NCBI GenBank assembly: GCA_025526915.1
Contig: JAHLKH010000080.1
Coordinates: 49,055-113,054 of the forward strand
Source of the DNA: Entophlyctis helioformis
Lineage: Eukaryota > Chytridiomycota > Chytridiomycetes > Chytridiales > Chytriomycetaceae
Direction of reading: 5' to 3'
Length of the DNA: 64,000 bases
Below are positions 59,813-64,000 of the stretch, piece after piece. The notes beneath the pieces were generated by a model. The model searched no databases. It had not been told where the DNA came from and saw only the letters and a program-made list of their open reading frames with translations. The first letter of the stretch is position 1, and each line of letters opens with the position of its first letter. The translations under genes were made by a program, and so were the position numbers.

Positions 59813-60887
59813 GGCATTGGACACGCCGTGACACGAGCAGCTCTTTATTGCCCTGTGCCCAGCAAGCCCGCCTCTGGCACTTCTCTGACCACTGCAGCCT
59901 CTCTGCAGCCTGCCGTGTGCCGTGTGCCGTGTGCCGCCGCCTTGAGCGCGCTCAGCGACTGACCGTGCGCGTCTCAAAGGCGCAGTGGAACATGATGGCG
60001 TCCACCAGCGTGTCCGACCCGCGCAGCCGGCCTGCGCCGGGCAGCCGGCCAATCTCGGCGAACCCCGTGCGGCGCCACAGCGCGACCGACGCCTGGTTGC
60101 TGGCGAACACGAGGTTGAACATGGACGCCTTGTATCCGAGCAGCGGCGCGATCTGCTTGAACGCGTTGGCCATGACCGTGCCGACGCCCTTGCCGCGCTG
60201 TGCATGCTCGACAATGAACCCGCCGTTGCAGACCTGTGCGGTGCGTGCCGTGTGTGAGGTGTGTGTGTCGTGCATGCGATCAGCAACGGCAGCCAAGCGC
60301 AAGCAGAGCGTGCACGGGCAAGAGCGTACATGCGAGCAGCGGCCGGGAAAGTTGGGCTTGACGTAAAAGGCGCCGTAGATGGTGCCTGCGTCGTCGGTCA
60401 CCACAAACGCATCGTGCGACAGAAAGTACGAGCGGAAGGCGGCTTCTGTCATGGGCTCCTCCTGCGGCGGTGCACATGTTGGCCGACGGTCAGCGACTGT
60501 GGCCTGCCACCAGCCACTGCCACACACAAGCTGCACAGGCTGCACACACAAGCTGCACCACAGACCTGCGGGTACGTGTCGCCGTCCTCGATGATGCGGT
60601 TCAGCAGAGCGTGCAGCTGGCCCACGACGGCCGCGCTGGCCGGGTCTGCCGCCACCAGCGAGACGGCCGTGCCATCGCGCAGCGTGCCCGCCAGCGGCAG
60701 CAGGCTCTGCAGCGCATCTGCAGACACGCCGGCCGGCCTCGCAATCTTGCCGTATGCGCTGCTCATCGGCGAAACGGTTCCGCGGCAAACGCCACGAGTT
60801 GGTGGCACGCGGCCCTTCGCCTGCAACCCTTTTCTTGCAACGCTTGTCTTTCAACCAACACCTCGCCGCTTGTCCCCAGCCAAACTC
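59813..60887 (-). repeat. GNAT segmental duplication, copy B
   Basis: Inverted copy of 32917-34011. The left edge ends within GTGTCCAATGCC, the start of the tetraspanin-like fragment in copy A, and continues here into unrelated sequence. Confidence 0.9.
59952..60766 (-). CDS. GNAT-family N-acetyltransferase, copy B
   Basis: Three exons, 60566-60766, 60330-60461 and 59952-60233, with the same lengths as copy A (201, 132 and 282). 204 residues, apparently identical to the protein at 33039-33865, including the acetyl-CoA loop QRGKGVGTV. Differences are confined to introns and flanks, for example the first intron lacks a GTGTGCAGCCT-type repeat seen in A. Both copies therefore seem functional. 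Confidence 0.85.
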
Positions 60888-60901
60888 CCACAAGACAGCC
60901 A

Positions 60902-61297
60902 ATGAGCCGCCCTCTCCACTCATCGCTGGCGGGCTCCGCAGAGCCTTCGCTGCTAGCGCCGTCGAGCAAGAGCACGAGCGACTTTCTGTCTCTGTCGCCG
61001 TCGTGGCTGTCGTCCGCTTCACCGTCACTTCACGCCTCGTCGACAGCCACATTTTTTGAAACCACAGACTCTGGTGCACAGCTGCCATTGCCGCCGCTGT
61101 TCGACACCTCGCCGTGGCTGTCGTCACTGTCGTCGGGCGATGAGTACGACACAGACAACATGTCCGACGACGGCATGAGAGGCAGCCACCTGCTCCATGC
61201 CCAGCCACTTGCAGGAAGCACCTCCCATTCCAGCCTGCTCCTGCAATCGCACACGCCCAAGTCGAAACACAGCTCGCCTCAGAGGGGTGGGCAATAG
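60902..61297 (+). CDS. Hypothetical Ser-rich protein
   Basis: Open frame of 131 residues starting MSRPLHSSLAGSAEPSLLAP, 15 bp beyond the end of the GNAT duplication. Ser/Leu-rich with an acidic patch (SSGDEYDTDNMSDDG). No domain recognised. It converges on the Fanzor 3' end. Could be a genuine short disordered protein or chance. Confidence 0.35.
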   Translation: MSRPLHSSLAGSAEPSLLAPSSKSTSDFLSLSPSWLSSASPSLHASSTATFFETTDSGAQLPLPPLFDTSPWLSSLSSGDEYDTDNMSDDGMRGSHLLHAQPLAGSTSHSSLLLQSHTPKSKHSSPQRGGQ

Positions 61298-61307
61298 GGC
61301 GAGGGAA

Positions 61308-61324
61308 TGCCGGCAGTGCCGGCA
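61308..61324. repeat. GC-rich palindrome, possible element end
   Basis: Two TGCCGGCA palindromes separated by one base, 200 bp downstream of the Fanzor stop. Could be part of a terminal inverted repeat or an RNA stem; the partner end would lie beyond the right edge of the window. Confidence 0.4.
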
Positions 61325-61369
61325 AAATGCCCGACATCCAAACAATTACCAAGAATCATTGAATTAAAT

Positions 61370-61527
61370 TGGACGCGAGAGGCGTCGGATGTAAGGCAAG
61401 CATAACACACGATGGAAGGTTCGAGTCAGCAACGAGCATGCGACGACAGGCGGGCGAGGCACATCCACATGCAGAGGGTCTTACCTTCGTAAAGTGACCC
61501 TATTGGTCGATCGGGAGGTGCCCCGAT
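61370..61527 (-). ncRNA. Candidate Fanzor guide (omega-type) RNA region
   Basis: Directly after the Fanzor stop codon come stem-loops: 61510-61527 (ATCGGG pairs with CCCGAT, starting one base from the stop), 61475-61501 (AGGGTC with GACCCT, containing an inner TTAC-CTTC-GTAA hairpin) and 61372-61386 (GACGC with GCGTC). In TnpB and Fanzor systems the guide RNA scaffold lies at the 3' end of the gene next to the element end. The stems are seen in sequence; the RNA role is inferred from position. Confidence 0.4.
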
Positions 61528-64000
61528 TCATATTGTGCTGGAAGTCACAGCACGTGGAGTGGCATGTGCCTTGCTGGCTCGTGACCCGCGGACAGACCGT
61601 GTCCGTGGTGGAGGCGGCAGGACGATGGGCGGATCGGGTGGTCTTGGAGGCCGCTGGTTGACAGGCAGCTCAGGTACTGGAAGCTGCTGGACGACAGGCT
61701 GACTGGCCTTTGTGTGCGTCAAGTAGAGCGGCCGCTCTCCATCGAGCAAATGCCCCAGTGCGACCATTCCGATGTTGGTGGCTCCAAGCACGTCTCGGTG
61801 GTAGACGGCCTTGCATGCTGTGCACTCGTAGCGTCGCAGGTTGGTGCGGTTCTTGTCTGGGATCCGTTGCTTGCACTGCGGGCACATCTGGCTGGTCAGG
61901 TTCTCGTTGCAGCGGTAGATCTGTGTGTGTGTGTGCATGATCGTGTGTCAGTTGGTGCACAGATGGATGGATGGCATGGCATCAGACGCACATAGGCATA
62001 TCCAGACGACCGCAGATGCCTGATGAGAAACTTCTCAAACACAGCGTGCCGGCCACCCTCGCCAGTAAAGTCGATGCCCAATGCCCACACAACTGGGATG
62101 TTGTCCTCTGCCGACTTTTTTGGATCGAAGGGCAGGCCTTGAGACGCAGGAGATGCGCGCTTGCCAGTGGTCGATCCTGCCAGCTTCATGATGCCTTCAA
62201 GAGCATGTCCGCGAAAAGACATGCTGTTGCTGCGCATGGAAAAACGCTCGGCCTTGACCTTCTGTGGAATGCCATGCCATGCCATGCCATCAGTGCAATC
62301 AGCAGGCGATCAAGCAGCATGGCGATCATGCCGATATGCATTCAGAAGCAGAGAAAACATACCTTTGCATTCAGGAATGTCGAGCAGTACGCCAAGCAGC
62401 GAAGATCCCAAAAGCTCTCTCGCCTGCTGAGACGCCTGGATCGGCATGCTTTGCCATCTTGAAGGCAATCGCCTCATGGATGTCGGCTGCCTTGGCATAT
62501 CGGCCATTGAACCTGGCACAAGAGACAGGCGCTGTGAGTTGATCTGGTCAAGAGTGCACAGAGTCATTGCATACATACCATCGCAGAAGTTCGCGCTCAG
62601 CTTGAAAAATGCCAGAGGAGAGCACATAGTTGGCCTCGAGCGTGTATGTGCCGGTATTGACGTTGAGCAGCATGCTGGACGCGCCAAACAGGTACCGCTG
62701 GCCCCAGTCTAGACTGACAACGCGAACAGTCTGGTAGCCCTTTCGGCGAGCAGCTTGTTGGCATCAGCAACATCAGGTAGTCGCTGGGATGCATTGAAGT
62801 TGCGCTTGGCCTGTCATGCCATGGCATGAGTGAGGGATGTGCAATGCATGTGCACCAATGCGCGAGGTTAGCATGCAAGTGACATACAAGGTTTGGCACT
62901 TTTGGCTTGGCAGCTGTGGATGGCATGTCAGTTGGTGTGGACAGCAAGTACGCGTCTGGATTGGCACAGCAACTCACATTCGCCGTTGAGGTAATCAGGC
63001 ACACAATCAGCCTCATTGGCAAGACTGGGAAGCTCGCATGAAGACGCCGTGTCGGGACCTGCGAAGCAAGGCGGCGGTTAGAATTGATGTGTGCACCAAA
63101 GCATCCAAGCACGGCACATACTGCAAGGCGACTCTGGACGGTCTGTGCGATAATCGCGAACCAACTGGCCGACGCTGTATCCGTTCGAGATGACACTACT
63201 CATCCGTGTCCGTTTGGTTGGTCTCGCTGGGGGTAGAGCATCAACCGCAGCCTGGATGAAGTCCTTGCGCTCCTTGCCACGCAGACGCTGCTTCTTGGCC
63301 GCTCGCGTCGCCTTGGCTTTGGCCACTTTCTTTGCCTTGGTGTTGGCTGCGTCCATTTCCGCTTCGGCTTCTGCCGGCGTTTGATACCGGCCTTTCTTGG
63401 GGCGGAGGCCGGGAAGCAGGACGTCCATGACGCAATTCTCGCGACTCGAGCTGAATGCCTTCTTGATCTCGCTGTCGGTTGACTTGAGTGTCAACTTTTT
63501 CGAGCCAGGCTCTTTGAGAAAGGTGGATTGTTAGTATCAAATCATAAAAAGATGGCACAAACAGGCAGTGCAACTTACTGATCGCAGCAAGTAGCTCCTT
63601 TCGCAGTGCTTGCAAAGCAGGATCCTGCCCCTTGCTGTCGCGCTCCTTCTTTGTCCCCATCACAGACCAAAAGAGTGTCCTCTCTGTGATGAGAACGAAA
63701 GGGTCGCAGCTTGCCGGCTGCGGGCAAAGCTTGATGCTCTGTCTCCCAGCGAGATTGCGCAGCGCATGGAACTTGCCGGGATGCGACAGCGACTCACTGA
63801 GCACAATCGCAGCGAGCTCGTCTAGCTCTGGAGGTAGCACGACAACGGCCTTGCCCTCTGTGGCTGAGGAAGAGCTGGATGCTGCGGCCTTCTTGCTGCG
63901 TGGCTTCTTTGGTGCGTCCTTGCCCTCCGTGGCTGGCGATGTGCTCGGCGCCGCACTCTCGGTGGTGGCAGCCTTCCCCGACACATGGCTCTCTTGGCGT
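61528..64000 (-). CDS. Fanzor RNA-guided nuclease (eukaryotic TnpB homologue), 5' part beyond window
   Basis: Eight exons in view: 63579 to beyond 64000, 63122-63511, 62978-63058, 62888-62913, 62579-62810, 62363-62512, 61992-62261 and 61528-61920; about 655 residues. Lys/Ala-rich N-terminus; RuvC-I aspartate in VRVVSLDWGQRYLFGAS; bridge-like helix with RFSMRSNSMSFRG; VVWALGIDFTGEG strand; glutamate in CNENLTSQMCPQC joined to a zinc finger (CPQC...CTAC); RuvC-III aspartate in YHRDVLGATNIG; Pro-rich tail. This Glu-before-zinc-finger order is the rearranged Fanzor active site. One-base slips near 62745 (a G run) and 62395. Many introns show long residence in a eukaryotic genome. All catalytic residues are present. 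Confidence 0.85.
62262..62291 (-). repeat. GGCAT pentamer run at a Fanzor 3' splice site
   Basis: Four GGCAT units end eight bases before the CACAG acceptor of Fanzor exon 7. Similar GGCATG-CAG contexts occur before exons 4 and 5. Confidence 0.7.

Follow-up and report, generated by a model that had tools for sequence, protein, structure and literature searches.

The Fanzor gene at the contig end

Read on the minus strand, positions 61528-64000 of the window (the whole stretch of 64,000 nucleotides analysed here) encode the C-terminal portion of a Fanzor, which is related to the Cas12 nucleases of CRISPR systems, in the chytrid Entophlyctis helioformis. The gene lies in eight exon pieces separated by GT-AG type introns. 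The part of exon 1 that falls in the window (63579-64000) encodes a Lys/Ala-rich linker followed by LPPELDELAAIVLSESL and is incomplete, its 5' end being lost where both the contig (C80) and the window stop. Exons 2 (63122-63511), 3 (62978-63058) and 4 (62888-62913) lead to exon 5 (62579-62810), which carries the RuvC-I motif SLDWGQRY at 62692-62715, and then to exon 6 (62363-62512), exon 7 (61992-62261) with the RuvC-II region VVWALGIDFTG, and exon 8 (61528-61920), in which the zinc finger NENLTSQMCPQC...CTAC and the RuvC-III motif HRDVLGATNIG precede the stop codon at 61528-61530. The junction of exons 6 and 7 is the same in a public gene model of a related copy (P0001). The hallmarks listed in the initial annotation, SLDWGQRY, the C4 finger and HRDVLGATNIG, are thus all found in the minus-strand reading. 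Its eight exons are also recovered as GT-AG pieces, but not its claim that each splice is in phase, as the reading frame changes inside exons 5 and 6.

The exon-8 frame matches PF07282, the TNB or OrfB zinc-ribbon domain, with E=1.5e-10, and all six family members compared match the domain too. The finger of the window Fanzor is CPQC...CTAC, of the C4 type, and its RuvC acids are D/E/D. A Fanzor/TnpB signature, D-X(125,275)-[TS][TS]-X-X-C4-X(5,50)-RD, is given in PMC3627910, and alignment A3 of the family fits it with D36, T228 and S229 (191 residues between), C232, C235, C252, C255, R261 and D262, invariant in six of six; the window copy has the same residues, spread across two frame breaks. 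Profile match, signature and host together bear out the proposed Fanzor identity. The chytrid host that had been guessed from the letters is also confirmed: a profile built from six family members found 10 proteins among 8000 scored candidates, every one from Entophlyctis helioformis (BC831DRAFT). The cilium gene IFT57 is found in the assembly, as expected for a flagellate fungus. The public models for these Fanzors (P0001-P0010) are named hypothetical protein, and several of the five shown are partial or out of frame near the end.

A protein search with one sibling as query, in which 7999 candidates were scored, brought up nothing related at E<=0.001. Against the PDB the window protein matched a sphingomyelinase (E 0.061), an identity that was rejected, and the TnpB-like protein L79 (0.93), and the profile of the Fanzor family matched, one unrelated chain aside, only LaTranC (E=0.47 and 0.72). 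In sibling copies the frame stays open further upstream, giving open reading frames of 826 codons (L017) and 804 codons (L022) and a long N-terminal region of acidic and lysine/alanine-rich repeats, so the full protein probably has, by estimate, about 1,300 residues.

The copy in the window is either broken or mis-assembled. It carries a single-base frame break near 62743 in exon 5 and another near 62405 in exon 6; in the alignment the former is absent from 18 of 20 siblings and the latter from 19 of 20. The final splice model was applied to three siblings (C268, C82 and C379), all of which read 653 residues without interruption from the partial exon 1 to the stop, and other siblings in the alignment carry indels of their own. 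The suggestion that the nuclease may be active, made because all three acidic residues are present, thus holds as regards the residues, but with two frame breaks the window copy may make no protein, whereas some of its siblings could. There is purifying selection on parts of the Fanzor domain: among seven copies from different families dN/dS is 0.50 or less in 20 of 21 pairs for exon 5 and, for exon 8, in 19 of 21. The picture for exon 7 is less uniform, as 5 of 21 pairs have values of 1 or more, and its low dS points to gene conversion in this exon.

A repeat family with shared ends

The Fanzor domain is highly repeated, with at least 150 matches to PF07282 in the assembly (150 scored of 205 candidates), all of them over the curated cut-off. 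The 3 kb at the end of the window has, besides itself, DNA copies at 21 loci that are 94-98% identical and at 18 that are 77-86% identical (40 scored of 298 candidates), and it is difficult to reconcile the near-identity of the former with the initial view of an old gene. All 20 siblings that were fetched end on the same final base, window position 61282, although L023 and L025 share one flank and are possibly one insertion assembled twice, as are L046 and L050. The last bases of the element, 61282-61295 on the minus strand, are the right terminal inverted repeat ATTGCCCACCCCTC. Next to it lies the presumed 9-bp target site TGAGGCGAG (61273-61281), whose left copy would be beyond the contig end and in which the first AG starts at the third flanking base.

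When the upstream stretches of three siblings (C98, C15 and C121) are joined, an element of 9.8-9.9 kb is obtained, with the left end GAGGGGGGGGGTAATTG; the complement of the right end is GAGGGGTGGGCAAT, so that the ends are short inverted repeats. Target duplications were read by eye at seven elements, a further one (C121 plus) being unreadable. Perfect 9-bp duplications flank three of the seven (C121 minus, AGATCCCAT; C144, AGCAATGAA; C177, CTCCCAGTC), seven of the nine bases agree in C15 and in the minus-strand C13 element, and the duplication is absent in C98 and in the plus-strand C13 element. The left flank of C98 ends in TGAGGCGAGC and the right flank of the window begins with TGAGGCGAG, which suggests that the window and C98 have been affected by chimeric assembly across near-identical copies.

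The ends can be followed through the genome. A 15-mer of the left end occurs exactly 46 times, with 8 further occurrences at one mismatch, and a 13-mer of the right end occurs 91 times, the reversed control giving 0 in both cases. At least 50 of the 91 right ends have a PF07282 match, among those listed, 365-623 bases upstream. The order left end, XPG-like gene (described below), PF07282 and right end is found at 8.6-12.0 kb for at least 11 of the 46 exact left ends, and at 16.6-17.0 kb for at least 2 further left ends. The C38 family is 92.6% identical to C98 over the first ~770 bases and has almost no DNA match in the rest of the 3 kb compared: the ends of the element are shared whilst its interior diverges. 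What the window contains is the last ~2.7 kb, on the right-hand side, of an element from a DNA transposon family of ~10 kb, truncated where the contig stops.

Not all right ends belong to such elements. Ten 13-mers were fetched from the 41 without a listed PF07282 match upstream, and 8 of them are solo right ends (L059-L062, L064 and L066-L068, on C1, C9, C18, C21 and C25), in which the match to the element is confined to the final 13-29 bases (29 in L067). The DNA before them is host-like; L060 and perhaps L064 read as coding sequence, and these two matches may be due to chance. The match to TTGCCCACCCCTC in L060 (C1:140350-140670) is followed, 79 bases further along the same strand, by the left end of a full element. 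The insertion L044 has its right terminus in tandem, with GCCCTGTTGCCCACCCCTC twice. A LINE-like or one-ended mode of transposition, considered for the solo right ends and for the shorter left parts in siblings, was set aside because left ends and 9-bp duplications were found, with the solo ends still unaccounted for. The minus strand of window 59955-61355 encodes a GNAT acetyltransferase domain (PF00583, E=6.6e-6), which is oriented like the element and lies ~1 kb downstream of its end.

The upstream gene and the search for a transposase

It had been claimed that no other transposon gene is visible in the window, and this is true of the window, but only because the contig ends, as in fuller copies a further gene lies ~5-6 kb upstream of the Fanzor. 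Its product begins with MGVIGL, MGIIGQ, MGVDGS or MGVVGA and continues with the motifs VD or ID, HVDG, C(D/E)(H/N)EADVCIA, and ND(S)DL or GD(S/T)DL. Among six members assembled by hand, with identities of 33-59% to the first one, M1, G2, G5, D59, D109, G110, E196, A197, D198, D226 and D228 are all invariant. We take this set of acids to be that of XPG/FEN1 nucleases. The likeness is in the MGxxG start and in the Asp/Glu positions of the N and I regions, whereas a significant match to Pfam or PDB sequences is lacking and the gene is part of a transposon. Three of the six proteins match Pfam XPG_I_2 below its cut-off, the best with E=0.02, two sequences submitted singly gave 0.19 each, also below cut-off, two earlier pairs and pieces of the gene gave no XPG match, and a PDB profile search with the protein found nothing. 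It is therefore as a probable XPG/FEN1-like 5'-nuclease, assigned from motifs, that the gene is treated here.

The pairing of this gene with the Fanzor is a recurrent feature. At least 97 XPG-like loci were obtained in the assembly by merging the 150 listed of 205 matches (214 candidates). For 42 of the 97 a listed PF07282 match follows on the same strand at a distance of 4.9-7.6 kb, which in 38 cases is between 5.6 and 6.1 kb, and 49 of the 51 neighbouring pairs within 15 kb are on the same strand. The XPG-like gene also accompanies the Fanzor in divergent families. When viral contigs were compared with the XPG profile there were 46 pattern matches, none of which was confirmed. A search of the assembly for transposases of the MULE (PF10551), Merlin/IS1595 (PF12762) and IS256 (PF00872) types gave 0 candidates for each, although introns, gaps or divergence could hide one. 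As no DDE transposase of these three types was found, the XPG-like protein may be regarded as the leading candidate for a partner in moving the element.

Hairpins after the stop codon

Directly after the stop codon, on the minus strand of 61485-61527, lie two conserved hairpins and a third that varies in length, a candidate for the 5' part of an omegaRNA. Common to the families, from the stop codon on, is TGAATCGGGGCACCTCCCGATCGACC....GGGTCACTT; after it come the variable-length segment and then AAGGT[A/G]AG, with L004 differing at the donor. Two copies have both sides of a pair in the first hairpin changed, from G-C to A-U. Among 49 copies 12 distinct versions of the third segment occur, of which 11 fold as hairpins, 3 of the 11 with z above -1.4; the commonest version, CTTTACGAAGG, present in 19 of the 49 copies and in the window, does not fold stably by itself. 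For the right-end segment as a whole the consensus fold lies 2.8 SD below column shuffles (z=-2.8), with a covariance term that is not above the shuffles. Distances in the core of the right end are 0.03-0.17 between families (L005, mis-cut and at about 1, left out, and L003 and L022 dropped by length) and are about equal to the dS of 0.07-0.30 at synonymous sites of exon 8, thus similarity alone proves no constraint. Rfam gave one match in window 60900-64000, at E=0.26 and below its gathering score. The guide RNA of the Spizellomyces element lies between the stop codon and the right inverted repeat, and by analogy the segment here may be considered an omegaRNA candidate.

There are two main kinds of right end. 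In one, GGGCC is followed by the flank (L002, L003, L007, C168 and L056), and in the other, which includes the window, ~48 more bases lead to ATTGCCCACCCCTC; in L063 and L065 a different sequence separates GGCC from the terminus of this second kind. The variants of the third hairpin, of an AATA/TAAC loop and of a middle insert are shuffled among families (L001-L008, L040-L058), which points to recombination or gene conversion between elements. A host promoter motif was considered as a source of the right end; at three or fewer mismatches it has 20 matches in the window against 12 for the reversed control, no clear enrichment.

A donor-like motif and a scarcity of AG

The hairpins are followed, at 61282-61484 on the minus strand, by a donor-like AAG|GTAAG and a stretch free of AG to the end of the element, a candidate for an intron that has no acceptor and/or for the 3' part of the omegaRNA. 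In 25 distinct related copies (C168 and L056, with the other kind of end, left out) no AG follows the donor over the 192-201 nt to the element end in 23, and there is one each in L057 and L058. Summed over the 25, AG occurs 2 times against 161.6 expected, a reduction of ~80-fold, and GA 161 times against the same expectation of 161.6. The AG-free run is the third longest of 7592 in the window on both strands, the two longer being of 214 and 208 nt. There are 82 distinct substitutions in the right end; 9.2 of them would be expected to give rise to AG (7.8 if the same sites are considered), whereas 2 would do so, and among the carriers linked changes leave a real AG only in L057.

The same organisation is apparent in loci of other families. 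In all eight, L001-L008, the coding strand past the gene is free of AG for 141-203 nt; on the opposite strand such runs measure 69-128 nt in seven of them and 245 in L006. The donor is present in seven of the eight. Within the AG-poor stretch there is a conserved CTGAC that resembles candidate branch sites in the introns of the Fanzor gene. Where the end is of the kind seen in the window, a pyrimidine tract closes the stretch. Beyond the element, 14 of 43 distinct right flanks (one of them an internal tandem copy in L044) start with AG, and the first AG falls within 0-6 nt in 37 of the 43, against ~35% expected from the window AG frequency of 0.059. The flanks are purine-rich at several positions, the first base being A or G in 35 of 43. 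As the copies are related, these right-end and flank counts overstate independence. The simplest reading of the sequence is that the right end may be an intron for which the target supplies the 3' splice site, with a purine-rich integration preference as the main alternative. That the whole element is one intron was rejected, as its left end lacks the usual donor.

Comparison with known systems

The well-described chytrid element is Spu-1 (SpuFz1) of Spizellomyces punctatus, reported in PMC10432273 as of ~2.1 kb with a single ORF and inverted ends, and present as 42 full or partial loci and 134 ghost loci. Its RNA, between stop codon and right inverted repeat, has a 75-nt scaffold and a 14-15-nt guide from the flank, and no transposase was found within the inverted repeats (PMC10432273). 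The two are alike in their chytrid host, inverted ends and Fanzor, and the conserved RNA from stop codon to right end in Spu-1 has a candidate counterpart here. By description they are set apart by the length of ~10 kb, the intron-rich Fanzor with its long N terminus, the XPG-like gene, the 9-bp duplications and the AG-poor, donor-bearing end of the Entophlyctis element. A further known group is that of the MuDR-like Fanzor1 elements of Mucoromycota (ROr-4, PBl-3 and MCi-4), which share inverted ends, 9-bp duplications and a Fanzor without a MuDR transposase, but for which, comparing by description, the available part of PMC3627910 mentions no XPG-like partner or splice-donor right end. The 9-bp duplication is shared with the MuDR/MULE superfamily at large, whereas the MULE DDE transposase was not found in the Entophlyctis assembly. 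With such duplications and the ~150 copies of a Fanzor element in a red alga that the same paper gives, neither duplication length nor copy number is new.

The right end has its nearest parallel in introners. A Chrysochromulina introner family brings a 5' splice site with it and recruits the 3' site, the acceptor coming from the duplicated target (PMC9860276). Introners are short, with family medians of 30-654 nt, and end up as introns in the genes of the host. The likeness would be that donor and intron body come from the element and the acceptor, as inferred for the Entophlyctis element, from the target. The Entophlyctis element differs in being a coding element of 10 kb with the donor in its 3' part, and in that the left end, GGGTAATTG, has no donor like those of the Fanzor introns. 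In the portions of the open literature on Fanzor, XPG/FEN1, introners and Entophlyctis that were available, neither an XPG-Fanzor element nor a Fanzor element with an acceptor supplied by its target was found to be described.

Possible mode of action and alternatives

The reading favoured here, with reasonable though not high confidence, is that of a two-nuclease DNA transposon of ~10 kb, with an XPG/FEN1-like gene and an intron-rich Fanzor, in which an omegaRNA region is combined with an introner-like end. It takes in the observed anatomy, copy number, ends, 9-bp duplications, gene pairing, selection, hairpins and AG-poor zone. The right end would be transcribed into a guide RNA whose hairpins bind the Fanzor and whose guide comes from flanking DNA, and the Fanzor would then cut sites without the element, such as the site left after excision, so that repair recopies the element. 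With a splice donor and a pyrimidine tract but no acceptor of its own, the right end may use the first AG of the target site, and read-through Fanzor transcripts would gain a spliced 3' exon from the host, making insertions better tolerated. A bolder version, which would be a long shot, is that the spliceosome finishes the guide RNA and that the XPG-like 5'-nuclease rather than a DDE transposase moves the element. The donor at 61485/61484 would then connect the hairpin scaffold directly with the first AG of the target site, and the guide would start with host sequence.

It is conceivable, though on balance we doubt it, that the element is a non-autonomous MuDR-like passenger which has lost its transposase, with the Fanzor as cargo moved in trans and the XPG-like gene as further cargo. 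Movement of this kind has been proposed for elements of Rhizopus, Phycomyces and Mucor, and the 9-bp duplications and short inverted ends do fit MuDR-like Fanzor1 elements, including those without a MuDR transposase (PMC3627910). The zero candidates for PF10551, PF12762 and PF00872 argue against it, with the reservation already made that one could be hidden, as does the presence of the XPG-like gene with the Fanzor across divergent families, which is more than random cargo predicts. That the window simply holds a dead or mis-assembled Fanzor of no special design seems improbable, for whilst its two frame breaks and its truncation by the contig end fit such a relic, at least three siblings can be read through these exons without interruption, exons 5 and 8 are under selection across families and the organisation of the element recurs.

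A tentative alternative, likewise thought to fall short of probable, concerns the right end only, where the scarcity of AG may reflect base composition, ancestry or the constraint of a guide RNA instead of an intron, and the AG in the flanks a target preference of the integrase. The copies are indeed related, two longer AG-free runs occur elsewhere in the window, and with A or G as the first base of 35 of 43 flanks an AG near the junction may follow from target preference. That GA is at expectation when AG is ~80-fold down tells against this alternative, and so do the 2 AG-creating substitutions in 82. The same holds for the AG-free 141-203 nt in all eight loci of other families, and for the recurrence of the donor (7 of 8), the branch-like CTGAC and the pyrimidine-rich end.

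Entophlyctis helioformis offers a family of more than 100 loci with dozens of insertions, in which the two-nuclease layout recurs and 9-bp duplications occur, and this makes guide origin, target choice and mobility directly testable. If it is true that the target supplies the splice acceptor, RNA-guided transposons would be linked to introner-like intron gain.
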